A DNA stretch of 64,000 nucleotides from Tatumella morbirosei. Its GTDB lineage: Bacteria > Pseudomonadota > Gammaproteobacteria > Enterobacterales > Enterobacteriaceae. The notes below the pieces were generated by a model. That model was not told where the DNA came from and ran no database searches. It saw only the letters and a list, made by a program, of their open reading frames with translations. The position numbers and the translations under genes are program-made. Shown here piece after piece: positions 55 to 50,281 of the stretch. The number at the start of each line of letters is the position of its first letter. The first letter of the stretch is position 1. Location: assembly GCF_000757425.2 (NCBI RefSeq), contig NZ_JPKR02000004.1, forward strand, positions 310,001 through 374,000, in the 5' to 3' direction.

Positions 55-2208
55 ATGACACCTATGAAAATTGCGGCCAGTGCCGCGCTGATTCCGGTAA
101 TTTCTTCTGAGCGGCCGCTGGTGGCGCTGGAACACACTGATTTTACCGACGTTGCTGCGGTAGTGCTGACAGTGGCCGATGCCAGCAAAGCAATGCTCTC
201 TTTGCTGAAGCGCAGTGGTTTTAACTTGCCGGTATTTGTGGCGGGTTCGTTGCCGTCTCAGGATAGCTCCGGAGTGATTACCGGTGAATATCATCCTGAT
301 ACAGAAGGTAACGCGGCACTGGAACAGGCTGCCGCTCATTATCAGGAAGCGCTACTGCCGCCTTTTTACGACACACTGACCCGTTATGTCGGAATGAAAA
401 ACAGTACCTTCGCCTGTCCTGGTCATCAGGGCGGGGAGTTTTTCCGCAAACATCCCGCCGGCCGGCATTTCTATGACTTTTTTGGCGAGAATATTTTCCG
501 TTCAGATATGTGTAATGCGGATGTCCGGCTGGGCGATCTGTTGATCCATGAGGGTTCTGCCAAAGATGCCCAGAAGTTTGCGGCAAAAGTCTTTAATGCG
601 GATAAAACCTACTTTGTGCTGAACGGCACCTCCAGTGCCAACAAAGTGGTGACTAATGCGTTACTGACCCCGGGTGATCTGGTGCTGTTTGATCGCAATA
701 ACCACAAATCGAATCACCACGGTGCGTTAATTCAGGCCGGGGCGACACCGGTCTATCTGGAAGCGGCCCGTAATCCTTTTGGTTTTATCGGTGGTATTGA
801 TGCGCATTGCTTTGATGAGGCTTACCTGCGTAAGCAACTAAAACAGGTGGCGCCGGAGCGGGCCAAAGAAGCCCGGCCATTCCGCCTGGCAATTATCCAG
901 CTCGGAACCTATGACGGTACCGTGTATAACGCGCGTCAGGTTGTCGATAAGATTGGTCATCTGTGTGATTACATCCTGTTCGACTCGGCCTGGCTGGGTT
1001 ACGAACAGTTTATCCCGATGATGGCCGATTGTTCGCCATTATTGCTGGATTTGAATGAAAATGATCCGGGGATCTTTGTGACCCAGTCCGTGCACAAACA
1101 ACTGGCCGGATTCTCTCAGACCTCGCAGATCCATAAGAAAGATAACCATATTCGTGGACAAAAGCGTTTCTGCCCGCATAAGCGGCTGAACAATGCCTTT
1201 ATGTTACATGCTTCAACCAGTCCGTTTTATCCGCTGTTCGCTGCGCTGGATGTCAATGCGAAAATTCACCAGGGGCAGGCGGGTCGTCAGCTGTGGCAGG
1301 AGTGTGTCACTCTGGGTATTGAGGCACGTAAGGCCATTCTGTCACAGTGCCGGATGATACGTCCGTTCCTGCCGGAAACGGTGGATGGACAGCGCTGGGA
1401 AGATATTCCGACGCCAACTCTGGCTTCTGACCGTCGTTACTTCAGTTTTGAACCCGGAGCCCGCTGGCACGGTTTCGCCGGATATGCACAGGGACAGTAT
1501 CTGGTCGATCCCTGTAAGTTATTGCTGACCACACCAGGGATTGATGCGGCCACCGGTGAGTACAGCAGTTTTGGTATCCCCGCGACTATTCTCGCCCACT
1601 ACCTGCGGGAAAACGGTATTGTGCCGGAAAAATGTGACCTGAACTCGATTCTGTTCCTGCTGACCCCGGCAGAAAGCTCCGATAAGATGGCAAAATTGGT
1701 GGCTAAACTGGCTCAGTTTGAGCAGCATGTTGAACAGAATGCGTTACTGGAAGATGTTCTGCCGACCATTTATCGTAAATATCAGCAGCGCTACCAGGGA
1801 TACACCCTGCGTCAGTTATGCCAGGAGATGCATTCACTGTATGTCAGCTACCAGGTGAAGGATCTGCAGAAAGCGATGTTCCGTCAGCAGAGCCTGCCAG
1901 CGGTAAGAATGAATGCGCAGCAGGCTCACCACCTCTATCTGAGGGGCGAAGTGGAGTTGGTACCTCTGTCGCAGGCGGAGGGAAGGATCGCCGCCGAAGG
2001 GGCCTTACCCTATCCGCCAGGTGTGTTATGTGTCGTGCCAGGCGAACTGTGGGGTGGCTCTGTTCAGCGCTATTTCCTGGCGCTGGAAGAGGGGATCAAT
2101 CTGCTGCCAGGATTTTCTCCTGAGCTGCAGGGGGTTTATATCCGTGAGGATGAAAATCACACCCAACGTCTGTACGGCTGGGTATTGTTACCTGATGCGC
2201 TAAACTAA
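55..2208 (+). CDS. speC: Ornithine decarboxylase, biosynthetic type
   Basis: PLP-dependent fold-type I decarboxylase that converts ornithine to putrescine in the cytoplasm. The 717-residue product aligns end to end with E. coli SpeC (711 aa): an N-terminal wing domain, the PLP domain with the cofactor lysine at about K348 in SVHKQ, and a C-terminal domain ending near LYGWVLLPD. The ATG at 55 is preferred over the in-frame TTG at 40 because it gives MTPMKIAAS, matching the E. coli start in length. It faces mltC convergently, as in E. coli except that nupG is missing between them. The inducible paralogue SpeF is the alternative, but the mltC neighbourhood points to speC. Confidence 0.95.
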   Translation: MTPMKIAASAALIPVISSERPLVALEHTDFTDVAAVVLTVADASKAMLSLLKRSGFNLPVFVAGSLPSQDSSGVITGEYHPDTEGNAALEQAAAHYQEALLPPFYDTLTRYVGMKNSTFACPGHQGGEFFRKHPAGRHFYDFFGENIFRSDMCNADVRLGDLLIHEGSAKDAQKFAAKVFNADKTYFVLNGTSSANKVVTNALLTPGDLVLFDRNNHKSNHHGALIQAGATPVYLEAARNPFGFIGGIDAHCFDEAYLRKQLKQVAPERAKEARPFRLAIIQLGTYDGTVYNARQVVDKIGHLCDYILFDSAWLGYEQFIPMMADCSPLLLDLNENDPGIFVTQSVHKQLAGFSQTSQIHKKDNHIRGQKRFCPHKRLNNAFMLHASTSPFYPLFAALDVNAKIHQGQAGRQLWQECVTLGIEARKAILSQCRMIRPFLPETVDGQRWEDIPTPTLASDRRYFSFEPGARWHGFAGYAQGQYLVDPCKLLLTTPGIDAATGEYSSFGIPATILAHYLRENGIVPEKCDLNSILFLLTPAESSDKMAKLVAKLAQFEQHVEQNALLEDVLPTIYRKYQQRYQGYTLRQLCQEMHSLYVSYQVKDLQKAMFRQQSLPAVRMNAQQAHHLYLRGEVELVPLSQAEGRIAAEGALPYPPGVLCVVPGELWGGSVQRYFLALEEGINLLPGFSPELQGVYIREDENHTQRLYGWVLLPDALN

Positions 2209-2216
2209 ACGACGGC

Positions 2217-2244
2217 CCCCGCTACCGGCTAACCGGTAACGGGG
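2217..2244. terminator. Hairpin between convergent speC and mltC
   Basis: A 12-bp stem with one mismatch (CCCCGCTACCGG against CCGGTAACGGGG) around a 4-nt loop lies between the two stop codons. No long T run follows on either strand, so efficiency is uncertain, but its position suits a bidirectional terminator. Confidence 0.6.
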
Positions 2245-2249
2245 AACGG

Positions 2250-3326
2250 TTAATAGCGATAATAGCTGTGCTGAGCGTTGTTTACTTTGTACAGATAACG
2301 CCGTGACTCCATCGCCGGGTGGTTATTGACCAGTGTCTGGTAAACTTCATCCGGTGACATGCCATTAATGATGCTAAAGGCACGATCTTTGTTAGATGAG
2401 AAGATACGTAACACACTTCCGGCACCGCCGTTGTAGGCCGTGATCACCGCGTAACGCCGCGAGACCGGATTAGTGATGCCTGCCAGATAGCTATTTTGCA
2501 GCAGTGACAGATAGGCCGTACCCGCATCAATATTATTGGCCGGATCCAGCAGATATCCACGGCTGGGTTTGCCCCATTTACCCTTCATCCGGAACACATC
2601 CACCCCGGCAGTATGCTGAACGACCTGCATCAGACCGAGTGCATCCGAGTTGCTGACCGCATACGGGTTAAAACTGGATTCGGTTTGCATAATCGCCAGG
2701 ATCAGAGAAGAGTCAACACCGTACTGTTCTGAAGCTTTGCGGACCAGCGGCAGATACTTATGCGCACGTTTATTCAGATGGTTAGGAACCATCGGAATGG
2801 TGACCGACCAGATAACATGCAATCCTGACATCCGGCGCTGGAGTTTATATTTCAGCAGGTAGTCAGCAAAGCTGGCTGCCCGGCCTTGCCAGCGGATAGG
2901 ATGACCGGTGTTATCCAGTACCTCTCCGTACAGCAGCGGTTCCTGGCTGAGTTTTATATCGTTAGCATCGGAGTAGAGGTCCACGTTACCGGGGTTTTCA
3001 CCCACCAGTAAGGTGGTAATAATTGCCTGGCGCAGGCTGGCCATCGGGTCAGTACCGGCAATGGTCTCGATGGTGATATTACCGCTTTCAAAGTTAATAT
3101 GACTGCGGGTGTAGTAGTTGTCGCTATATTTTACGTAGTCTTTTGGCCCGGCAATCAGTACCTCATTGATACCCCAGATATTCTCAATGTTATGGGCAAA
3201 CTGCCCCATCAGAATGTCAAAGCCGTTGGTGTCTTTCACCCAGGCTTCATTAAATGCCGGGGTCTTATGGCTGGAGCAGGAGACCAGTAGCGGAGCAATC
3301 AACAGTAGCGGGTACAGTTTTTTCAT
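2250..3326 (-). CDS. mltC: Membrane-bound lytic murein transglycosylase C
   Basis: Cleaves the MurNAc-GlcNAc bond of peptidoglycan to leave 1,6-anhydromuropeptides; acts at the inner face of the outer membrane. The 358-residue protein starts with a lipoprotein signal (LLVSC lipobox, acylated Cys17). A DUF3393-type N-terminal domain follows, then a Slt-type SLT domain from about residue 190 with the catalytic Glu in MQTESSFNP and the AYNGGAGSV motif near the C-terminus. Length equals E. coli MltC (359 aa). It follows yggX on the same strand after about 50 nt and is probably co-transcribed with mutY-yggX. Confidence 0.96.
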
Positions 3327-36970: not shown

Positions 36971-37156
36971 GGAGATCTCCGGGATGCCGCTACAGGCTGT
37001 AACCCTTGAACCCTTGGTTCAAGGTGAACATGTCGTCATTATCATCAGGCTTCCCGGACGAACCGGGCATGCTCACAGTTAATGAAGCGCCATATTCTGT
37101 TTGGTATGAAATATCGGCTCAGGGGACTGGCCCGTTCACAAACATCCCAGAGAATA
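36971..37156 (-). ncRNA. ssrS: 6S RNA
   Basis: RNA of about 185 nt that sequesters sigma-70 RNA polymerase by mimicking an open promoter. On the minus strand the 5' end reads ATTCTCTGGGATGTTTG and the 3' end GGCATCCCGGAGATCTCC; the two ends pair as a closing stem. The central segments GGGCCAGTCCCCTGAGCCG and TTGAACCAAGGGTTCAAGG are the hallmark sequences of enterobacterial 6S RNA. It sits between zapA and fau, the family's normal place. Ends are estimated to within a few bases. Confidence 0.95.
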
Positions 37157-40851: not shown

Positions 40852-42060
40852 ATGCAAAGCTTTGATGTTGTGATTGCCGGAGGCGGTATGGTCGGACTGG
40901 CCGTCGGCTGTGGGCTACAGGGGAGTGGGCTGAAGGTGGCGGTGCTGGAACAAACACCTCCCCGTGCTCCTGATATGCAGGCTGCCCCTGCCATCCGGGT
41001 GTCGGCAATCAACCTTGCCAGCGAACGGCTGCTCAGCCATCTCGGCGTATGGCAGGATATTCTGGCGATGCGGGCCAGTGCTTACCACGGGATGGAAGTC
41101 TGGGAAAAAGACAGCTTTGGTCATATCCGTTTTGATGAACGACCCCAGGGCATCGCCAGCCTGGGACATATTGTTGAAAATCAGGTGATTCACCATGCAC
41201 TCTGGCAACGTGCCAGTCAGTGCAGCGATATCCAACTGATAGCGCCTGCTCAGTTACAACAGGTAGCCTTCGGTGATAACGAAGCCTTTGTTACCCTGCA
41301 GGACGGTACGATGTTAACCGCCAGATTGCTGGTGGCTGCCGACGGTGCCAACTCCTGGCTACGCGACAAAGCTGATATCCCTCTGGTATTCCGGGACTAC
41401 CAGCATCATGCGCTGGTCGCCAATATCCGTACCGAACAGCCCCACGGGTCGGTCGCCCGGCAGATTTTTTATCCGGAAGGTATTCTGGCGTTTCTGCCAT
41501 TACAGGACCCGCACCTCAGTTCCATCGTCTGGTCCTGTGATCCACAGCAGGCCAGCCGGGCGCAGGGCATGTCCGAAGATCAGTTTAATCAGCAACTGGC
41601 GGTAGCCTTTGACATGAAACTGGGGCATTGTCAGCTGGAAAGCGAGCGTAAAACCTTCCCGCTGACGGCCCGCTATGCACGTCAGTTTGCCGCCCACCGT
41701 CTGGCTCTGGTGGGCGATGCCGCCCATACCATCCATCCGCTGGCGGGGCAGGGCGTGAATCTCGGCTTTATGGATGCGGCTGAACTGATGGGTGAAATTC
41801 GCCGCTTACAGCAACAAGGGAAAGACATTGGTCAGCACCTCTATCTGCGTCGCTATGAGCGCAGCCGGAAACACAGTGCGGCCCTGATGCTGGCTTCGAT
41901 GCAGGGCTTTCGCGATCTGTTTGCCGGTAGCAATCCGGCCCGTAAACTGCTGCGGGATATTGGCCTGAAACTGGCGGATACCTTACCCGGGGTGAAGCCT
42001 CAGTTACTTAAACAGGCGATGGGTCTGCATGATCTGCCTGACTGGCTGAAAAATAGTTAA
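40852..42060 (+). CDS. ubiI: 2-octaprenylphenol hydroxylase
   Basis: FAD monooxygenase (formerly visC) that introduces the C5 hydroxyl in aerobic ubiquinone synthesis. The 402-residue protein has VIAGGGMVGLAVGCGL at the N-terminus, VAADGANSWLR, and the second FAD motif LVGDAAHTIHPLAGQGVNLGF. The ATG at 40852 follows a GTG one codon upstream; the ATG matches E. coli UbiI. Last gene of the operon. In E. coli gcvTHP comes next; here a 7-kb accessory segment intervenes. Confidence 0.95.
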   Translation: MQSFDVVIAGGGMVGLAVGCGLQGSGLKVAVLEQTPPRAPDMQAAPAIRVSAINLASERLLSHLGVWQDILAMRASAYHGMEVWEKDSFGHIRFDERPQGIASLGHIVENQVIHHALWQRASQCSDIQLIAPAQLQQVAFGDNEAFVTLQDGTMLTARLLVAADGANSWLRDKADIPLVFRDYQHHALVANIRTEQPHGSVARQIFYPEGILAFLPLQDPHLSSIVWSCDPQQASRAQGMSEDQFNQQLAVAFDMKLGHCQLESERKTFPLTARYARQFAAHRLALVGDAAHTIHPLAGQGVNLGFMDAAELMGEIRRLQQQGKDIGQHLYLRRYERSRKHSAALMLASMQGFRDLFAGSNPARKLLRDIGLKLADTLPGVKPQLLKQAMGLHDLPDWLKNS

Positions 42061-42071
42061 CTTTGCAATCC

Positions 42072-42091
42072 GGCCCGCATTCCTGCGGGCC
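42072..42091 (+). terminator. Hairpin after ubiI
   Basis: A perfect 8-bp stem, GGCCCGCA / TGCGGGCC, with loop TTCC lies 11 nt after the ubiI stop. It is not followed by a T run, so it may stabilise the 3' end rather than terminate. Confidence 0.5.
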
Positions 42092-42229
42092 ACAATAAGA
42101 TAATCTCCCCCCCTGTTCAGTGATTCATCACAGAGGCTAAGCGGTTCACCGGTTTTTGCTTCCGGTAAATGTCTCCCCGCCGGATAAGAAACTCCTATTA
42201 TGGTAAAAATTTCACAGGGAATATAGTGC

Positions 42230-42258
42230 TTTAAGTATCTGAAATATGAACCTATAAT
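42230..42258 (+). promoter_or_regulatory. Probable promoter of the nicotinamidase-ABC-nucleoside hydrolase operon
   Basis: A perfect TATAAT lies at 42253-42258 with a poor -35 (TTTAAG) 17 bp upstream, which hints at an activator. The predicted leader to the ATG at 42361 is about 95 nt and contains repeated GCATTGCG elements and G+C-rich complementary segments. A small palindrome GTGAT-TC-ATCAC sits at 42120-42131, over 100 bp upstream. I recognise no NAD-related or other riboswitch. Confidence 0.4.
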
Positions 42259-42360
42259 CGGGCATTGCGGTTAGCGATGGTCATAATCTGAACGTCGGTT
42301 GCCCTTCGCCTGGCGCCGGTGCATTGCGACAGCGCTTATTATAATGACGGGGATAATGTT

Positions 42361-43011
42361 ATGCAGTCATCAGCGACCACGGTGCCGGCGAATGACCAGC
42401 ACAGCGCGTTAATTATTGTCGATGTACAGAATTGCTTTGTCACCGGCGGAACACTGGCGGTCGAGGGCGGTGAAACCATTATCCCGCTAATCAACCAGCT
42501 GGCAAGCCGCTTCTCCAACGTTATCCTGACCCAGGACTGGCATCCGGCCGGACATATCTCCTTCGCGGCGAATCATCCGGGGAAGCAAGCGGGTGAATTT
42601 ATCGATACTCCCTACGGTCCGCAAATTCTCTGGCCGGTTCATGCGGTTCAGGGCAGTGAAGATGCTGCTCTGCATGCTGGTTTGCAGGTCCCTCATGCGC
42701 AGCTGATTATCCGCAAAGGTTGCCATTCCCATATCGACAGTTATTCGGCATTTACTGAAGCTGACCGGCAAACCACCACCGGACTCGCCGCTTACTTACG
42801 TGCCCGCGATATCCACACACTGTATATCGTGGGACTGGCAACCGATTTTTGCGTCTCGATGACAGCCATCGATGCCAGTCTGGCGGGCTTTACGACCTCG
42901 GTGATTGAGGATGCCTGTAAAGCTATCGATATACAGGGTTCACTGGCTGCCGCCCGCCAACAGATGCTTTCCCGGGGTGTGCAACTCATCCAGTCTTCTG
43001 CGCTTAACTAA
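42361..43011 (+). CDS. pncA: PncA-type nicotinamidase
   Basis: Isochorismatase-fold amidase predicted to hydrolyse nicotinamide to nicotinate and ammonia. In the 216-residue product the catalytic triad is complete: D21 in VDVQNCF, K119 in IRKGCH, C164 in ATDFCVS. The metal ligands are also present: D59 and H61 in QDWHP, H94 in WPVHAVQGSE. The cis-peptide region GLATDFC and VDSYSAF-like IDSYSAF agree with E. coli PncA. ATG 42361 has GGGGAT upstream; the frame is open from 42319. It heads a five-gene operon with an importer and a nucleoside hydrolase. Whether this is the genome's only pncA cannot be seen. Confidence 0.85.
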   Translation: MQSSATTVPANDQHSALIIVDVQNCFVTGGTLAVEGGETIIPLINQLASRFSNVILTQDWHPAGHISFAANHPGKQAGEFIDTPYGPQILWPVHAVQGSEDAALHAGLQVPHAQLIIRKGCHSHIDSYSAFTEADRQTTTGLAAYLRARDIHTLYIVGLATDFCVSMTAIDASLAGFTTSVIEDACKAIDIQGSLAAARQQMLSRGVQLIQSSALN

Positions 43012-43034
43012 CACTATCCTGACAGGGAGACTCT

Positions 43035-43859
43035 ATGTCTGTACTGACCACAGATCTGCCTCCTGCGGCGGACCCCGGGGATTCACGACCGATCCGGCTG
43101 GAAATTAATAATCTCACCGTGCGTTACGGGGACGTCACCGCGCTGAGTAATGTCAGCCTGCAGGTCCGGGAAGGCGAGTTTATCTGCATTCTTGGCGCTT
43201 CAGGCTGCGGCAAAAGTACCCTGTTTAACGTGGTCTCCGGGCTGCTGCCGTCCAGTGAAGGACGGATTATGCTGGAGGGAAAAGATGTCACGAATAAGCC
43301 AGGCCAGGTCGGCTATATGCTGCAAAAAGATCTGATGCTGCCGTGGCGTACCGTGCGCGGTAATATCACCCTGGCCGCCGCGTTAACCCGTGGAGTGAGT
43401 GCGGCCGATCGCCATCAGGCTGAGGAACTGGCGACCCGTTACGGGCTGGGGGATTTTCTCGACCATTATCCCCATGCGTTGTCGGGCGGAATGCGCCAGC
43501 GGGTAGCGATGATGCGAACCGTCGCCGCCGGCAAAGAAGTGATGCTGCTGGATGAACCCTTCGGTGCTCTGGATGCCCAGACCAGATTCAGTATGCAGGA
43601 GTGGTTATTACAAATCTGGCGTGACCTGAACCGCACGGTGCTGTTTGTCACCCACGATGTGGATGAAGCGATTTTCCTGGCGGACCGGATTGTGGTGATG
43701 ACCCCGCGTCCGGGACGGATTGCCGAAATCCTGACGGTGCAACTGCCAAGGCCCCGCACCCTGGAAGATCTGACCGGAGAGACGTTTGTGCAGCTGAAAC
43801 GGCAAATCATGAGCCGCCTGTATCACGATGAGAAACAAAACGGAGGGCGCCATGAATAA
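43035..43859 (+). CDS. ABC transporter ATPase, NitT/TauT (ThiZ/RibZ-like) family
   Basis: A 274-residue cytoplasmic ATPase. Walker A is GASGCGKST near residue 55, the Q-loop region is GYMLQKDLMLPWRTV, the signature is LSGGMRQRV, Walker B is VMLLDEPFG, and the H-loop is FVTHDVDEA. The LPWRTV after the Q-loop is typical of NitT/TauT-type importers for sulfonates, nitrate and pyrimidine or riboflavin precursors. It lies 23 nt after the nicotinamidase gene and overlaps the permease gene by 8 nt. Confidence 0.92.
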   Translation: MSVLTTDLPPAADPGDSRPIRLEINNLTVRYGDVTALSNVSLQVREGEFICILGASGCGKSTLFNVVSGLLPSSEGRIMLEGKDVTNKPGQVGYMLQKDLMLPWRTVRGNITLAAALTRGVSAADRHQAEELATRYGLGDFLDHYPHALSGGMRQRVAMMRTVAAGKEVMLLDEPFGALDAQTRFSMQEWLLQIWRDLNRTVLFVTHDVDEAIFLADRIVVMTPRPGRIAEILTVQLPRPRTLEDLTGETFVQLKRQIMSRLYHDEKQNGGRHE

Positions 43860-44643
43860 TACTCAGCAACATCCCTGGCGGGCGGTGCTGGTCTGGCTGA
43901 TTTCGCTGGTGATGATTATCGTGCTGTGGCAGTTGGTAATCTGGGTTTCCGGGCTGCCACAGTATGTGATTCCTTCTCCGCTAACCGCCTTCCGGACCCT
44001 GGTGGAAAATGGACAGCGCCTGCAGTTACTGACCTGGCAGACATTATCTGAAACCGCCATGGGGTATCTGCTTGGCGCGGTGGCGGGCTTTGTACTGGCA
44101 TTGCTGATGGGGCAAATTCCACTGGTTCAGCGACTGGTCATGCCGGCGTTAATCGTTTCCCAGGCAGTGCCGATTGTCGCGATTGCCGCACCGCTGGTGA
44201 TTATTTTTGGTTTCGGTCTGCTGCCTAAGCTGATTATCGTGGCCTGGATTGTCTTTTTCCCGGTGGTGGTCAATGTGCTGGACGGGCTGGCGGGCATCGA
44301 CCGCGATATGCTGAACCTGGCCAGGCTGATGGGCGGCAAACCGCTGCGGGTATTTATGCTGGTCAAACTGCCGGCCTGCGTAGGTCCGTTGTTCTCCGGT
44401 CTTAAAATCGGGGCGACCTATGCGGTAACGGGCGCGGTGATCGGTGAATGGACGGCCTCGGCACAACAGGGGTTGGGCACATATCTGCTCAGCGCTAATG
44501 CGCGAATGGATACCGCCGGGGTATATGCGGCGATGATCCTGCTGACATCGATTGGCGTGGGTTCGTTTCTGATTGTCCTGGGCCTGGAAAGGATAGCTAC
44601 CCCTTGGCGTAGCCGGACCAAAGCCCCGCGTTATTTACGTTAA
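43852..44643 (+). CDS. ABC transporter permease, NitT/TauT family
   Basis: A 263-residue inner-membrane protein with about six helices. The BPD_transp_1 coupling-helix region reads GIDRDMLNLARLMGGKPLRVFMLVKLP, in which the EAA-loop glycine is recognisable, and PSPLTAFRTL precedes helix 2 as in SsuC/TauC/ThiX-type permeases. The ATG at 43852 follows GGAGGGCGCC; translation is coupled to the ATPase gene by the 8-nt overlap. Confidence 0.92.
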   Translation: MNNTQQHPWRAVLVWLISLVMIIVLWQLVIWVSGLPQYVIPSPLTAFRTLVENGQRLQLLTWQTLSETAMGYLLGAVAGFVLALLMGQIPLVQRLVMPALIVSQAVPIVAIAAPLVIIFGFGLLPKLIIVAWIVFFPVVVNVLDGLAGIDRDMLNLARLMGGKPLRVFMLVKLPACVGPLFSGLKIGATYAVTGAVIGEWTASAQQGLGTYLLSANARMDTAGVYAAMILLTSIGVGSFLIVLGLERIATPWRSRTKAPRYLR

Positions 44644-44691
44644 GCCCGGTGAAACTCACCGTAACCTATTATCCCGACAGAGGTAGACACA

Positions 44692-45669
44692 GTGAAAGCA
44701 GCTATTATTCGTACCGCCATTCTCAGTGCATTACTGTCCGGTGTTTCGGCGGGCTTTGCGCATGCCGAAACTCTGACTCCGATCCGCTTTGTTTATGACT
44801 GGGCCGGCGCTGATCACGAATTGATCCCGATTGTGGTCGGGCAGGAAAAAGGTTTCTACCAGCAGGCGGGGCTGGACGTGAAAGTCATATTCCCGCCAGA
44901 TTCGCAAACCACCGCCCGGATGCTGGCGCTGGGCCAGGCCGATGTTGGTCTGAATGCCACCACAGACGTGGTGTTTGCGGCCGATCAGGGGCTGCCGGTG
45001 ATCGCGGTGGGTCTGTATGCCCAGCATAATAACTGGGGGCTGTTCACCCGCCCCGGAGTGCCGGTGTCACTGAAAGATCTGAAAGGTAAATCGATCGCGA
45101 TCTATACCGATTCCTGGAGTAAAGCGATGATGCCGTTTGTGCTGAAAGCGGCAGGACTTCAGGAAAGTGATGTGAAATTTATTATTGCCCAGGACAGTGA
45201 TGTGCCGTTGCTGCTGGCCGGTAAAGTGGATATTGCCACCAATACCAATAACTTCCTGGTTCCGGATGTGGAACTGTCACAAAACAAGACTCCGGGACAG
45301 CTGGTGGGTAAAGATGCCGGAGTGCCGGATGTGCCGGTATGGGCTTATACCGCCTCGACCCGCTATCTGCAGCAACATGGTGATGTAGCGAAGAAATGGA
45401 TGCAGGCCACGATTAAAGCCACCGAATGGGCAGCGGCTCATCCGGATGATGCCGCAGAACTGTTGCATAAAGCCTATCCGGACAGTGGTTCAGTGGCTCT
45501 GAGCACCAAAGCCTGGAAAATTATCTCACCGGATATGAAAGGGCCGCAGGGTTACATGATGCAGAATGATGACAACTGGTTGCCGATTGCCAAAGCTTTG
45601 CAGGCGACCGGTCAGATTAAGACGGTGTTACCGGCCGATAAATACTACACCAATCAGTTACTCAAATAA
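44692..45669 (+). CDS. NMT1/THI5-like periplasmic substrate-binding protein
   Basis: A 325-residue protein with a signal peptide of about 25 residues ending GFAHA, then an NMT1/THI5-type two-lobed binding domain. YDWAGADHELIPIVVGQEKGFY, the opening strand and helix, corresponds to the WxPNxxH region of pyrimidine-binding ThiY-type proteins. Later blocks are LGQADVGLNATTDVV and LKGKSIAIY. Known relatives bind HMP-like pyrimidines, riboflavin or sulfonates; the ligand here cannot be read from sequence. The operon context suggests a nucleoside or base of the nicotinamide group. The start is a GTG with AGAGGTAGACACA upstream. Confidence 0.88.
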   Translation: MKAAIIRTAILSALLSGVSAGFAHAETLTPIRFVYDWAGADHELIPIVVGQEKGFYQQAGLDVKVIFPPDSQTTARMLALGQADVGLNATTDVVFAADQGLPVIAVGLYAQHNNWGLFTRPGVPVSLKDLKGKSIAIYTDSWSKAMMPFVLKAAGLQESDVKFIIAQDSDVPLLLAGKVDIATNTNNFLVPDVELSQNKTPGQLVGKDAGVPDVPVWAYTASTRYLQQHGDVAKKWMQATIKATEWAAAHPDDAAELLHKAYPDSGSVALSTKAWKIISPDMKGPQGYMMQNDDNWLPIAKALQATGQIKTVLPADKYYTNQLLK

Positions 45670-45722
45670 GCGACTTATCACGACAGGCTCTGCGGAACGA
45701 TATCCGCAGGGCAGGAGAGGGT

Positions 45723-46634
45723 ATGGAAAAGATAATTATCGATTGTGACCCGGGTGTTGATGATGCTGTGGCATTAATGATGGCACTGGCCGCGGGTGAG
45801 CAGCTTGAGGTGTGCGGAATTACTACGGTAGCCGGTAATCTGCCTTTGCCGGCGGTCACCCGTAATGCATTACGTATTCTCTCTTTCCTGCAGCGGGAAG
45901 ATATCCCGGTGTTTGCCGGATGTTCGCGGGCGATTTTTCCGGGACCCGCCCGCCTCTCGTCAGTACACGGCGCAGATGGCCTGGGCAACAGTGGCCTGCC
46001 TGAATCGGAGCTACGTCCCGCACAACAACATGCCGTCGATTTTATTATCGACACTGTGCTGGCGGCAGCTGGTGAGATTACACTCTGCGTGCTCGGCCCA
46101 ATGACCAACATTGCCCTGGCTCTGATTAAGGCACCGGAAATAGCCCCGCAAATAAAACAGATAGTCGTGATGGGCGGGGCGGTATTCTGTCCGGGGAATA
46201 CTACCCCGGCGGCTGAGTTTAATTTTGCCTGCGATCCCCATGCCGCCGAAGTGGTACTGGCGGCCGGAGTGCCACTGACCCTGTTCGGACTGGATGTGAC
46301 CTCAAAGGCGCTGTTAACCGCACCGCGCATCGAAGCGTTGCGGCAATCGGATTCAGCGTCCTGTCAGCTGGCAGCCGTAATGCTGGCAGATTACGGCGCA
46401 GCCGATCCTTGTCTGCATGATCCCTGTGTGATCGCCGGACTGTTAGATCCTGACTGTTTTACGGGGATTCCGGCATGGGTGAGTGTCGACTGTACCCCCG
46501 GCATTAACTACGGGCGAAGTGTCGGTTTTGTCAGTGAACGGCATCTGGCCGGACGTCAGCCCAACGCGAAAGTGATTACCGGGGTCGATGACCAGCGGCT
46601 GTTCCGGTTACTGATGGATTTACTTAACCGCTGA
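45723..46634 (+). CDS. Inosine-uridine-type nucleoside N-ribohydrolase
   Basis: A 303-residue calcium-dependent nucleoside hydrolase predicted to release ribose and a free base. The N-terminal signature IDCDPGVDDAVAL supplies the metal-binding aspartates (D9, D13, D14). GNTTPAAEFNFACDPHAAE is the ribose-binding block, and the catalytic-site histidine is about H232 in LHDPC. The AGGAGAGGGT stretch precedes the ATG. It closes the five-gene operon. Specificity for purine, pyrimidine or nicotinamide riboside cannot be decided; pairing with nicotinamidase favours the last. Confidence 0.9.
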   Translation: MEKIIIDCDPGVDDAVALMMALAAGEQLEVCGITTVAGNLPLPAVTRNALRILSFLQREDIPVFAGCSRAIFPGPARLSSVHGADGLGNSGLPESELRPAQQHAVDFIIDTVLAAAGEITLCVLGPMTNIALALIKAPEIAPQIKQIVVMGGAVFCPGNTTPAAEFNFACDPHAAEVVLAAGVPLTLFGLDVTSKALLTAPRIEALRQSDSASCQLAAVMLADYGAADPCLHDPCVIAGLLDPDCFTGIPAWVSVDCTPGINYGRSVGFVSERHLAGRQPNAKVITGVDDQRLFRLLMDLLNR

Positions 46635-46641
46635 ATGTTGA

Positions 46642-46661
46642 GTAATGGAGCCTCGTTATGA
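46642..46661 (+). repeat. Direct repeat, left copy
   Basis: GTAATGGAGCCTCGTTATGA here and GTAATGGATCCTCGTTTGAT at 48826-48845 agree in 15 of the first 16 bases. Both lie just after nucleoside hydrolase sequence, so they are best read as the ends of a duplicated segment. Confidence 0.55.
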
Positions 46662-46795
46662 CGAATACGGCAGCCGGGATACGAGTCAACCTTACGCCGC
46701 TTTTCTGGTGGCTGTGGATGATGAATTATCAGCCCATGCGGCAGTTGATAACAAAGACTGGAAAGCCTCAGCAGCCGGGAGACATCGTGAATTGA
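46658..46795 (+). CDS. Small ORF after the nucleoside hydrolase gene, possibly truncated
   Basis: A 45-codon ORF starts MTNTAAGIRVNLTPLF and ends QQPGDIVN. GGAG lies 7 nt before the ATG, a good ribosome-binding site, and WWLWMM suggests the start of a membrane segment. The segment around NLTPLF resembles SNLTLCFALLF decoded after the duplicate remnant at 48843, so both may be the 5' end of the same lost membrane-protein gene. No function is recognised. Confidence 0.35.
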   Translation: MTNTAAGIRVNLTPLFWWLWMMNYQPMRQLITKTGKPQQPGDIVN

Positions 46796-46937
46796 ACGAT
46801 AATGGAGATATGAGAAGTAAAGAAACAGCGACACACTCAAAGCAAGCACTACAGGGTGAATGATATATTCAAGAAATCGATTAATATTTGTTAAAATATT
46901 AATCAGGTAAATAGTCAATCACGGGAATATCTTATAA

Positions 46938-47438
46938 ATGGTCAGGTTTATTGTTGCTGGAATAGCTGTATTGTTATCAATAGGTAATGCAACTGCCGCT
47001 ATTGAAGTATTCCTTGCACCTCCAGGCTGGCAACGCAGTACTGACTCTACTGTGGAAATTAAGGATTACCTTACCAGCAAAAAATCAGGTGACAAGACTG
47101 TTGAAAATTCGTATTTACCGGTAATTTTTTCTGCTGTTGAAATTTATCGTAATCAGGTTCAAAAACAGATTAATGGTATGTTTACTCAGACGGAACTGAA
47201 AAAATATTCTGGTACAATTTGCAAGATAGACATCACCACTGGAAATACAGCTATTGACGATCCCGACCCTCCGGAATTATTCGCATTAGACTACTATGCT
47301 GATAATTCCCGGGCTGGTTGTCAGGTCTTAATCAAAAAATTAGAGAAATTAGTTACTCATGGTCGCTTCCGACAATATCCTGTGCGCGCGAAAGAACATG
47401 GAATGCTATCTATTGATATGCTTTGGGTTTATAGCTAA
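46938..47438 (+). CDS. Hypothetical secreted protein
   Basis: A 166-residue protein with a likely signal peptide (about residues 1-20, MVRFIVAGIAVLLSIGNATA). The mature region has three cysteines and the block IDDPDPPELFALDYYADNSRAGC. I recognise no family. The coding sequence is clearly richer in A+T than the neighbouring operon and its ribosome-binding site is weak, pointing to recent acquisition. It is the longest intact frame in the decayed segment between the nucleoside hydrolase operon and gcvT. Confidence 0.55.
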   Translation: MVRFIVAGIAVLLSIGNATAAIEVFLAPPGWQRSTDSTVEIKDYLTSKKSGDKTVENSYLPVIFSAVEIYRNQVQKQINGMFTQTELKKYSGTICKIDITTGNTAIDDPDPPELFALDYYADNSRAGCQVLIKKLEKLVTHGRFRQYPVRAKEHGMLSIDMLWVYS

Positions 47439-47555
47439 AAGATATTCAAGTAGGCATCACACCTGATATTATATGTTCAATGCTATCTCGTTTGTATCAA
47501 CGGTGGTTCGTTTACTGGGGTATTGTCAGGCAGATTAGAAAAGCAATTTGATGAG

Positions 47556-47882
47556 ATGACCAGGGATTACAGTAAAGATCGCCTTCTGGCTGCGGGTTTC
47601 ACGGTGAAGGAGTTACAGAAACTACAGAATAATATCGATAACTTTGGCGGTACGTTTAAGGAAGTTATCACAGAGTTAGCCCGAAGGTTTAAAATTTTCC
47701 TGTGGGTTTTCTGTTGTTGTGTTGCCTGTTTTTTGTTTCTTTGTTTTTTGAAGATTGATGACTCCGGATATATTTTTGGTGGTGGTATATCGTTACTTGT
47801 TGCAGTATTTATCATTGGGTTTTCTCAACCGCCAGTCATCTCATTTAAATGCTGGCAGTTTTGTCGGATAAATAAAGATTAG
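47556..47882 (+). CDS. Small two-helix membrane protein (copy 1)
   Basis: A 108-residue product whose N-terminal half is an amphipathic cytoplasmic-type segment (LLAAGFTVKELQKLQNNIDNF) followed by two hydrophobic helices rich in Cys and Phe. It is a clear paralogue of the minus-strand gene at 48224-48535: both share LL-x2-GF, KL-x-NNI, GG, LA-x-RF, and K-x-W-x-F-x-R near the end. The frame is open from a TTG at 47523. It directly precedes a DUF4225 remnant, and the pair could be an immunity and effector-type module. That is inference only. Confidence 0.5.
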   Translation: MTRDYSKDRLLAAGFTVKELQKLQNNIDNFGGTFKEVITELARRFKIFLWVFCCCVACFLFLCFLKIDDSGYIFGGGISLLVAVFIIGFSQPPVISFKCWQFCRINKD

Positions 47883-48249
47883 TTATTCTCTATGCCGGGG
47901 CGCGAATGGCATAAGTAAAGAAGTTGCCCATTATGCAATGGATAATCAAACCTCAGAGGGTTTGGTTGCTGATGCAACTATGTCCACCGCTGAATTTATG
48001 GGATTTAGCCGTCATAGTGGGCTCGGGCTATATAAATCAGTCTCGCTGGTTGCAAATGCCTGTAGCATATTCGGTCTGTTCAGACGCCCCGGGACATGGC
48101 GTTTATTTCGATATCTGCCCGCCGATGATTACCGGAAAGTCAGCACCCTAAGCCGTCCAAAACTTACAATGAAAATTGTCGGTTATGGTGTTAAAGCTAA
48201 GATCATATTTGACCTTATGTCTATTAATGATACGGCTTCGAATGAGTGA
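47872..48249 (+). pseudogene. C-terminal remnant of a DUF4225 protein
   Basis: The frame reads GANGISKEVAHYAMDNQ and then SEGLVADATMSTAEFMGF, YKSVSLVANACSIFGL, RRPGTWRLFRYLPADDYRKV and SRPKLTMKIVGYGVKAKIIFD, a pattern I associate with the C-terminal part of DUF4225 proteins. Family-like sequence extends upstream of the first ATG (47938) back to a stop at 47869, so the N-terminal half is missing and no proper start exists. DUF4225 genes are commonly seen near type VI or polymorphic-toxin loci, though I cannot confirm the function. Confidence 0.6.
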
Positions 48250-48535
48250 TTAACCTGCGAAAGCGCCATGACTTATATGCCAGTTTCGCTGGCGTTAAAT
48301 ACCATATAAAAGGTAATACAACCGCCAGTGTGGTCGCAAGCGTGATGCTGGTAGCTACAGATGCCAGCATCAGTGTGAAAGCAAGCAGGGTAAAAGCAGC
48401 GATAGTTATCCACTTTGAGGCATTAAAGCGGTTAGCCAGATCATGGGTCACGGAATCCAGCGATCCGCCGTAATGAGCAATATTGTTTTTCAGTTTTTCC
48501 AGGTCTGCATGACTAAACCCTGACCTGAGTAGCAT
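48224..48535 (-). CDS. Small two-helix membrane protein (copy 2)
   Basis: A 103-residue minus-strand product starting MLLRSGFSHADLEKLKNNIA, with two hydrophobic helices (about residues 42-85) and a basic tail. It is paralogous to the plus-strand gene at 47556. The ATG at 48535 lacks a good ribosome-binding site. An upstream out-of-frame ATG with GGAAGGTGGA suggests that the original 5' end was lost or frameshifted. It overlaps the end of the DUF4225 remnant tail to tail. Confidence 0.45.
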   Translation of the reverse strand: MLLRSGFSHADLEKLKNNIAHYGGSLDSVTHDLANRFNASKWITIAAFTLLAFTLMLASVATSITLATTLAVVLPFIWYLTPAKLAYKSWRFRRLITHSKPYH

Positions 48536-48732
48536 CACTCACTTTCATAGCAATCCACCTTCCATCCTTAAAATGCAGATACCACTTTGCAGCAACTATA
48601 CACAAAAATTCCGGACAACGCCGGGTCATATTTAATCATTGGCTCTCAGGTTTTGTATATCACTTCAGCGGTAAGCCACCGTTCATTAAGCCTGAATTAT
48701 ATCGGGCCCGATTTACCTGTTTTTCTCAGATG

Positions 48733-48843
48733 CGGAATTTCCTGCATGAACCTCGAGTGATTGCCGGGACGCAGGATTCTGACTGTTTCACGCTAGACTC
48801 AGCACTGCTCAGCCTTGATTGCACCGTAATGGATCCTCGTTTG
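48733..48843 (+). pseudogene. Remnant of a second nucleoside hydrolase gene
   Basis: The frame reads FLHEPRVIAGTQDSDCF and LLSLDCTV, matching CLHDPCVIAGLLDPDCF and VSVDCTP of the intact nucleoside hydrolase around residue 231. The rest of the gene is absent on the left, and the last 40-odd codons are deleted. The sequence runs directly into the right copy of the direct repeat. Confidence 0.65.
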
Positions 48844-48845
48844 AT
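48826..48845 (+). repeat. Direct repeat, right copy
   Basis: Matches 46642-46661. The two copies bracket the A+T-rich decayed segment of about 2.2 kb. Confidence 0.55.
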
Positions 48846-49186
48846 TTATTCTAATTTGACGCTGTGCTTTGCCTTACTTTTTCTAATCCGAAGTGTTGGG
48901 AATGGAATCCTGTCTTAACATTAACCCCTACCGATACTCTGCAAATATGCTGAGTAAAGCTCATTATTCTGGAGTTTTAAACTGCCGTTTTATTATATTG
49001 TGATGTTTTTATCTGTAATTATTTGCGCACCATTATAGTGCACACCCCTGTTTCGCCATTATTTTGCTTATAGTTAATTTTGCCTTTCAGTGGTAAGTTT
49101 TTGCTAAGGATAACGTTTGCGTTGCGACAGAGAATCGTGGCGGCCTGACGGCTCAGGGTAAACCCTTACTTATCAACGGGACAGTT
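48846..49186 (+). promoter_or_regulatory. Upstream region of gcvTHP
   Basis: This A+T-rich stretch should contain the gcvT promoter and, by analogy with E. coli, GcvA and Lrp contact regions; I cannot place these sites. A palindrome GCAC-N7-GTGC at 49027-49041 is the most distinct element. There is no glycine riboswitch pattern. CAACGGGACAGTT leads into the gcvT ATG. Confidence 0.4.
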
Positions 49187-50281
49187 ATGACTCAGCACAC
49201 ACCTTTGTTTGAACAGCATCAGGCCTGCGGGGCCAGAATGGTGGATTTTCACGGCTGGATGATGCCTCTGCATTACGGTTCTCAGATTGATGAACATCAG
49301 GCCGTCCGCCACGATGCCGGAATGTTCGATGTTTCACATATGACCATCGTGGATATCACCGGGCCGCGCAGCCGCGAGTTCCTGCGCTATCTGCTGGCGA
49401 ATGATGTCGCCAAACTGACCGTTCCGGGCAAAGCCTTATACAGCGCGATGCTGAATGCTTCCGGAGGGGTGATTGATGATTTAATTGTCTATTTCCTGAG
49501 CGAGGAGTATTTCCGGCTGGTGGTCAACTCTGCCACCAGAGAAAAAGACCTGGCCTGGTTAACTGAGCATGCCCGCGGGTTTGGGGTGACATTACAGGAA
49601 CGCAGCGAACTGGCACTGATAGCGGTGCAGGGGCCGCAGGCACAGCAGAAAGCCCGCAGCCTGTTTACCGACAGCCAGCGTCAGCAAACCGAAGGGCTGG
49701 CACCGTTTTTCGGGGTACAGAGTGGTGATTTGTTTATTGCCACCACCGGTTACACCGGCGAAGCAGGCTATGAAATTGCGCTGCCCGCCAGCCAGGCCGC
49801 TGACTTCTGGCAGAAGTTACTTCACGCCGGAGTGAAACCGGCCGGGCTCGGTGCCCGTGATACCCTGCGGCTGGAAGCCGGCATGAATCTGTATGGTCAG
49901 GAAATGGATGAGTCAGTGTCCCCGCTGGCGGCGAATATGGGCTGGACTATCGCCTGGCAACCGGAGGATCGCCAGTTTATCGGGCGTGAGGCACTGGAAC
50001 AGCAACGCCGGCAGGGCCACGAAAAACTGGTCGGTCTGGTGCTGAAAGAAAAAGGTGTATTGCGAAATGAGCTGCCGGTGCTGTTTACTGACAGTGACGG
50101 TGTACAGCAGCAGGGGATTATCACCAGCGGTTCATTTTCCCCCACCCTGGGCTGCGGTATTGCCCTGGCAAGAGTTCCTGCCTCAATCACTGATACTGCG
50201 GTGGTACAAATTCGCCAGCGTGAGATGCCGGTCACCGTCACCCGGCCGGTGTTCGTTCGCGCCGGCAAACCTTTGGTATAA
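49187..50281 (+). CDS. gcvT: Glycine cleavage system T protein (aminomethyltransferase)
   Basis: Transfers the methylene group from aminomethyl-lipoyl GcvH to tetrahydrofolate, releasing ammonia. The 364-residue protein (E. coli 364) has the GMFDVSHM folate-domain block, the [12 protein letters not shown] signature around residue 187, and the catalytic Asp region near [17 protein letters not shown]. First gene of gcvT-gcvH-gcvP. Its one-carbon product joins the folate pool served by fau. Confidence 0.97.

Follow-up and report, generated by a model that had tools for sequence, protein, structure and literature searches.

A stretch of 64,000 nucleotides from Tatumella morbirosei (contig NZ_JPKR02000004.1, positions 310,001–374,000; hereafter the window, from the 4.41 Mb genome labelled G000) was found to carry five tightly spaced plus-strand genes at 42361–46634, which are considered here as a possible salvage unit for vitamin B3. 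The five open reading frames (ORFs) contained no internal stops, and the genes code, in order, for the nicotinamidase PncA, the ATPase, the permease and the NMT1/THI5-type binding protein of an ATP-binding cassette (ABC) importer, and a group I nucleoside hydrolase (Table 1). The second gene follows the first after 23 bp, the ATPase and permease genes overlap by 8 bp, and the last two spacers are 48 bp and 53 bp long. An earlier note on this DNA had described five tightly packed genes of these types at these positions, all of which was borne out by the ORFs and by the Pfam and NCBIfam matches. The note had also described an insertion between ubiI and gcvT. The site is indeed the ubiI–gcvT site, but gcvT is reached only at 49187, ∼2.5 kb past the hydrolase gene, because of a further small insertion in G000. 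In the related genomes G005 and G001, gcvT follows only ∼0.37 kb after the hydrolase gene.

Table 1. Features of the operon and its upstream region (window coordinates)
Feature	Position	Strand	Remarks
18-bp block upstream of pncA	42219–42236	+	common to three ABC-bearing, pnuC-less genomes; possible promoter/operator element
pncA, nicotinamidase, 216 aa	42361–43011	+	NCBIfam PRK11609 184.6 bits; sole nicotinamidase match in genome
ABC transporter ATPase, 274 aa, NtrCD/TauB/SsuB-like	43035–43859	+	Pfam ABC_tran 110 bits
ABC transporter permease, 263 aa	43852–44643	+	Pfam BPD_transp_1 83.5 bits
Periplasmic substrate-binding protein, 325 aa, NMT1/THI5 family	44692–45669	+	Pfam NMT1; GTG start; signal peptide by inspection
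Group I nucleoside hydrolase, 303 aa	45723–46634	+	Pfam IU_nuc_hydro 310.3 bits

Enzymes and importer encoded by the operon

PncA passed the cut-off (174 bits) of the NCBI curated nicotinamidase/pyrazinamidase model PRK11609, and scored 276.6 bits against the solved Acinetobacter nicotinamidase 2wt9. It was found that D21, D59, H61, H94, K119 and C164 were invariant across nine aligned PncA proteins, including those of E. coli, Acinetobacter and Sinorhizobium. We take D21, K119 and C164 to be the catalytic Asp-Lys-Cys set and D59, H61 and H94 to be the metal-binding Asp-His-His set, so that the residue set named in the earlier note is complete. By residues as well as by score the protein falls within the nicotinamidase family, and it is predicted to deamidate nicotinamide.

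Group I nucleoside hydrolases are characterized by a DxDxxxDD fingerprint and two conserved histidines (PMC11241417). In the Tatumella hydrolase, the fingerprint (D7, D9, D13, D14) together with H82 and H232 was invariant in an alignment of seven proteins that included E. coli RihA, RihB and RihC, and N159, E165, F166, N167 and D233 were likewise invariant in the same seven. These features, and a Pfam IU_nuc_hydro score above the cut-off of 34.2 bits, indicate from sequence that the protein belongs to group I. It scored under every curated subfamily cut-off: 248.7 versus 433 bits for RihA, 206.1 versus 459 bits for ribosylpyrimidine nucleosidase (RihB), 231.7 versus 382 bits for RihC, and 224.5 versus 450 bits for UriH.

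For the ATPase, the best NCBIfam model was ntrCD with 216.4 bits, below its cut-off of 291.8. Uptake of sulfonate, taurine or nitrate would be suggested by the ATPase and permease, which matched the ntrCD, ntrB, TauB, TauC, SsuB and SsuC models, and by the binding protein, which matched SsuA_fam with 88.4 bits. All listed matches to SsuA/SsuB/SsuC, TauB/TauC and NtrB/NtrCD stayed under the curated cut-offs, by which the operon is not a sulfonate system, and such a cargo is scarcely credible. In contrast, the binding protein reached 150.7 bits against Pfam NMT1 (cut-off 20.5), and score and fold both assign it to the NMT1/THI5 family. Its neighbours in fold and sequence bind thiamin, formylaminopyrimidine or pyridoxal phosphate, which suggests that it groups closest with binders of vitamin heterocycles of the thiamin/pyrimidine kind rather than with sulfonate binders. 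A binding protein of sulfonate type, which the earlier note had named as an outcome that would speak against its proposal, was thus not what was found.

The closest solved structures were thiamin- or formylaminopyrimidine-binding proteins and Thi5, which would be expected if the importer were a ThiXYZ-type system for thiamin or pyrimidine precursors. However, the identity to ThiY and to the thiamin-binding protein 4nmy was only ∼19–24%, and the stretches DW-x-x-N and YQ, which are present in 3ix1, 4nmy and most ThiY-like relatives, were altered in the sequence of the Tatumella protein. The operon contains no thiamin gene (the rest of the genome was not searched for thiamin genes). No thiamin pyrophosphate riboswitch or other Rfam match was found in 42040–46940, even at E values up to 1. 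The latter point carries little weight, since nine related NMT1 loci (L007–L015) examined as a control were likewise without an Rfam match and not every such system needs a riboswitch. A thiamin-type cargo is regarded as highly improbable, and it stays very unlikely that the ligand is either of the thiamin type or a sulfonate when the two are taken together.

Among the plasmid records searched, the best binding-protein matches were 32–34% identical and belonged to plasmids of Shinella, of Paracoccaceae and of Klebsiella. Three stretches were inspected (L022 from Shinella, L023 from Paracoccaceae and L025 from a Klebsiella pneumoniae plasmid). There, a compact operon combines an NMT1-type binding protein with an M24 peptidase, an ATPase and a permease, genes for a nitrilase, a carbamoyl hydrolase or an amidohydrolase lie close by, and this arrangement recurs on plasmids of three distant groups. 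Unlike the Tatumella operon, these stretches had no pncA or nucleoside hydrolase annotated alongside, and they gave no clue to the ligand.

NAD metabolism and pnuC across the genus

Six Tatumella genomes (G000–G005) were compared. Among named records, the closest operons were those of Tatumella saanichensis and Tatumella sp. JGM91. At the ubiI–gcvT site, pncA, the ABC genes and the hydrolase gene were all present in G000, G005 and G001. The pncA and ABC genes were contiguous in 4/4 genomes that carry the ABC genes (these three and G002), and the hydrolase gene was present there in 3/4. Among the four, the ratio of nonsynonymous to synonymous substitution rates (dN/dS) of the operon genes was 0.024–0.146, with dS of 0.43–2.28, the upper end of which is saturated; it was 0.06–0.14 for the hydrolase, and up to 0.177 for pncA across all six genomes. 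The operon genes are under purifying selection. Because pncA and the ABC genes stand together at one site in four Tatumella genomes and dN/dS is low, the operon is beyond chance. Between G000 and G001 the hydrolase diverged fastest (68% identity), followed by PncA (74%), the ATPase (81%), the permease (84%) and the binding protein (86%).

No nadA match was obtained in any of the six genomes, while 12 of the 14 controls, E. coli among them, were positive. Consistently, nadABCX has been reported in 0/3 Tatumella versus 21/21 Pantoea (PMC5808187). Tatumella therefore appears, from its gene content, to be unable to make quinolinate and NAD de novo; no experiment showing that Tatumella requires nicotinic acid was found in the open-licence literature. 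PncA was the single nicotinamidase match in each of the six genomes at E values up to 1e-5, and PncB and NadR were present in all six. As nadA is missing and pncB is kept, salvage should be essential, and the sole PncA together with PncB makes the Preiss–Handler route available.

A nadC match was present in 6/6 genomes, above the family cut-off in 2/6. The nadC ortholog adjoins ampD, and was 34–41% identical to that of E. coli, compared with 66–70% for ampD. The strong divergence of nadC (G000:C4:1630062–1630805; relatives L067–L072) was seen in all six genomes though nadA is gone, suggesting relaxed constraint; it could be a gene in decay or one retained for the salvage of quinolinate.

The gene pnuC encodes the known importer of nicotinamide riboside (NR). 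By profile matches (PF04973), pnuC was not detected in G000, G005 and G002 and was present in G001, G003 and G004, with E. coli and four other controls positive. It was thus missing in 3/4 ABC-bearing genomes and present in 2/2 ABC-less ones, and no genome (0/6) was without both, so that the loss of pnuC predicted by the earlier note for operon-bearing strains was seen in three of the four. Where present in Tatumella, pnuC adjoins zitB, which is also its neighbour in E. coli; in G000, G005 and G002, zitB and aroG were in place and pnuC was absent. A search of seven stretches for pnuC remnants yielded best matches of only 28 and 19 residues (E values of 0.13 and 0.72).

A tree was built with E. 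coli as outgroup from a concatenation of seven proteins (2762 columns); gcvT and gcvP were left out, being absent from the G000 locus used, and G000 nadR was entered as the shorter frame only. It showed ((G000,G005),G002) with 100% support and (G001,(G003,G004)) with 55% support. The genomes with the ABC genes but no pnuC grouped in one clade, and those with pnuC but no ABC genes in another. The simplest history suggested by this tree starts from an ancestor that had pnuC as well as the ABC operon; one lineage then lost pnuC, another lost the importer and the hydrolase, and G001 kept both pnuC and the operon. Such a pattern is as expected from two redundant importers of one vitamin, and with two losses it could also be due to chance.

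The NR-kinase domain of NadR was 86.7–87.8% identical to that of E. coli in all six genomes, the pnuC-less ones included. Compared with E. coli, it was the best conserved of the three NadR domains in all six, although the frame chosen for G000 truncates the other two. This conservation fits a continued entry of NR, and other roles of NadR could also explain it. The earlier note had contrasted an ABC route with the known uptake by PnuC and NadR; as to PnuC this agrees with its absence from three of the four ABC-bearing genomes, but NadR with an intact-looking NR kinase was kept in 6/6, so the ABC route would stand beside the NadR route and not replace it. In G000, nadR is split over two frames at the border between the DNA-binding and enzyme domains (G000:C4:1746307–1747302 and upstream; L041 ∼1468–2684, minus strand), which could reflect an error in the sequence or a genuine loss of the repressor portion. 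The gene was whole in G005 when compared in the same way, and the other four genomes had open frames of >400 aa.

A candidate route for pyridine ribosides and its alternatives

From the gene content and its context we infer the ligand of the importer, the substrate of the hydrolase and a functional link between the importer and PncA as follows. The operon would be a vitamin B3 salvage unit of a genus unable to make quinolinate. The periplasmic binding protein would take a pyridine compound, most likely NR or nicotinic acid riboside, which would then be pumped into the cell by the ATPase and permease. There, the nucleoside hydrolase would cleave the riboside to ribose and the base. PncA would convert nicotinamide to nicotinate, and PncB, encoded elsewhere, would convert nicotinate to nicotinate mononucleotide, which would enter the Preiss–Handler route to NAD. 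In one Tatumella clade the importer would have outlived PnuC, and part of the imported riboside may be phosphorylated by NadR.

This reading is strengthened by the auxotrophy, by pncA being the only gene of its kind and by the absence of pnuC from three of the genomes. The earlier note had proposed uptake of NR or a related nucleoside, release of the base and feeding of the Preiss–Handler route; the enzyme types, pncB, the lack of nadA and the pnuC gaps agree with that chain, whereas NR as the cargo stays a proposal. We put the chance that the operon imports and hydrolyses NR or a close pyridine riboside for NAD at just short of even. The fuller claim, in which an NMT1/THI5-type ABC importer for NR and a hydrolysis of the Urh1–Pnc1 type are joined in one operon that took over from PnuC in one clade of a genus deficient in de novo NAD synthesis, is more tentative and is possible rather than probable.

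In yeast, Pnc1 performs the nicotinamidase step of the Urh1–Pnc1 route from NR to nicotinate. As the earlier note had pointed out, the same two enzyme types occur in the Tatumella operon, a group I hydrolase and a nicotinamidase by family and by residues. Urh1p splits NR and uridine with similar efficiency, and it feeds a Preiss–Handler-dependent pathway (PMC11241417). By analogy, the operon may work like this yeast route with an importer added; unlike in yeast, the genes form a bacterial operon with its own ABC importer, and the activity of the hydrolase on NR is putative. With the enterobacterial PnuC–NadR system the operon would share the proposed substrate NR, and the NR-kinase domain of NadR is present throughout the genus. 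In contrast to that system, the proposed importer would be ATP-driven and multi-subunit, the riboside would be hydrolysed and not phosphorylated, and pnuC itself is missing where noted above.

To our knowledge, none of NiaP, NiaX and NiaY is an ABC system that uses a binding protein of the NMT1 type, and none of them was named in the family scans of the five operon proteins (the genome was not searched for them). These niacin transporter families would serve the same vitamin (PMC6593275). A survey of B3-auxotrophic gut genomes detected known families of niacin transporters in only 25% of them, most B3-requiring bacteria thus having no recognised importer, and PnuC was the sole NR transporter listed there (PMC6593275). 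If the proposed route were true, an ATP-driven importer of pyridine nucleosides and a hydrolytic NR route would be added to bacterial NAD metabolism, and a hint at the ligand would be gained for one branch of the NMT1 family, which is large and poorly assigned. Even if the ligand were niacin, a B3 importer would have been identified in an enterobacterial genus. The novelty assumed in the earlier note was upheld in so far as the open-licence papers searched described no such operon and no ABC importer of the NMT1 type that takes up NR or niacin.

Several observations weigh against uptake and hydrolysis of a pyridine riboside. The hydrolase residues that match, by inspection, those near the NR modelled in Urh1p were kept in 7/7 hydrolases; being common to all, they failed to discriminate between NR and pyrimidine nucleosides. 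The closest hydrolase relative found, from Shinella (54% identity), belongs to an operon that also encodes an ATPase, two permeases and a binding protein of the Bmp/PnrA type, and importers of this type are known for nucleosides. At the ubiI–gcvT site of G002, pncA and the ABC genes occurred with no hydrolase at the locus, and the hydrolase is dispensable there. In G003 and G004, pncA at this site was followed by a GNAT acetyltransferase gene, with no ABC or hydrolase genes, so a functional tie of pncA to the importer is not necessary. G001 carries the operon and pnuC together, and the pnuC pattern amounts to about two loss events, with the placement of G001 weak (55%). The consensus of the NadR operator is TGTTTA-N6-TAAACA, and no site of this type (≤3 mismatches) was found in 42061–42360, so that regulation of the operon by NadR gained no support. 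With the same scan, 1-mismatch sites were recovered directly in front of E. coli pncB and nadA, and Tatumella pncB was preceded by a site with two mismatches; the total numbers of matches in the E. coli and Tatumella control scans were within chance.

The context beyond the genus weighs on the same side. In the phylum sample, the hydrolase was matched (E ≤ 1e-40) in 104 of 398 Pseudomonadota genomes and PncA in 84, with both in 56, but the two lay within 20 kb of each other in G000 only (1/398, listed rows compared by eye); the next-closest pair was ∼33 kb apart (G727). At E ≤ 1e-30, the binding protein was found only in its own genome, in 1/369 genomes of the class and in 1/398 of the phylum (overlapping samples), where in genomes with many first-look candidates only some were scored (in G000, 6/16 and 5/16). 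Outside the genus, binding-protein matches fell to 36% identity at best among 60 relatives, and the two 36% cousins in the enterobacteria G009 and G031 were not accompanied by genes for a related ATPase or permease over a distance of 1.5 kb, nor was any apparent among the surrounding ORFs. The best-match loci read (L084–L142, with flanks of ≤1.5 kb) comprised the operon's own hydrolase locus (L084) and 58 others; in none of these 58 was a related permease or binding protein encoded nearby, and a distant ABC ATPase only was seen in L088, L122 and L126. Over the first 3980 of its 4274 bases, the operon had no counterpart in the E. coli genome collection. The context evidence comes from one genus, no sampled genome outside Tatumella having the five-gene combination, and the conserved co-location in other genomes that the earlier note had proposed to look for was, in these samples, seen in Tatumella only.

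Some of these points would be expected if the ABC and hydrolase genes served to take up ordinary or modified nucleosides, whether pyrimidine or purine, and to break them down for their ribose and base, with pncA as an older neighbour at the site that shares no more than the promoter. Under this explanation it is natural that pncA occurs without the other genes in G003 and G004, that the hydrolase is of group I like RihA, RihB and RihC and has its closest relative in the Bmp/PnrA-type importer operon of Shinella, and that no NadR operator lies upstream. It is less easily reconciled with G002, which keeps the importer beside pncA with no hydrolase at the locus; it leaves the loss of pnuC only in importer-keeping genomes unexplained; and the NMT1 type is not known to have a nucleoside-binding member. 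The base is contacted by polar residues, H227 and K228 in RihA and Q227 and Y231 in RihB (PMC2898832). The loop that carries these contacts was deleted in the Tatumella hydrolase, a weak argument against nucleosides, since the loop is also missing from RihC and the Shinella enzyme. On balance, nucleoside uptake is judged unlikely, though by no means negligible.

The importer might also carry nicotinate, nicotinamide or another pyridine base and be paired with PncA, the hydrolase being an accessory in some lineages. The arrangement in G002, which has pncA and the ABC genes with neither the hydrolase at the locus nor pnuC, would be accounted for, as would the full contiguity of pncA and the ABC genes compared with the less constant hydrolase and the fastest divergence of the latter. 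The low share of B3 auxotrophs with known niacin transporter families also implies that others exist (PMC6593275). However, the hydrolase gene is adjacent in three of the four genomes and is under purifying selection, which suggests a riboside, and E. coli salvages both bases though no committed transporter for them is known (PMC6593275). Uptake of a free base is considered distinctly unlikely.

Upstream region and neighbouring features

The 18-bp block upstream of pncA had one exact occurrence in the window, against 0.03 expected at ≤3 mismatches, and 16 of its bases were exact in 7 of 142 loci, all of them from G000, G005 and G002, where the block could also be aligned. Within the operon, three terminator-like sites (4.0 expected) and six promoter-like sites, all on the minus strand (4.3 expected), were counted, which gives no conspicuous sign of an internal terminator or promoter. 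In G003 (L052 8140–9020), the ubiI–pncA spacer was ∼870 bp long and contained short tandem repeats; the spacers of the other five genomes were shorter.

Other nucleoside hydrolases are present in the genus. In G002 (locus L059 5515–9079), a major facilitator superfamily transporter, a LacI-type regulator and a nucleoside hydrolase were found ∼7.5 kb from nadR, which looks like a separate nucleoside cluster.

The interval between the hydrolase gene and gcvT (window 46900–49150) was ∼2.2 kb longer in G000 than in G005 and contained small ORFs. Two of these, 47523–47882 (plus strand) and 48224–48538 (minus strand), encode short proteins with a mutual identity of 32% across 97 residues, with hydrophobic stretches by inspection and with no Pfam match. 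An ordinary 6S RNA gene was located at window positions 36972–37156 on the minus strand.

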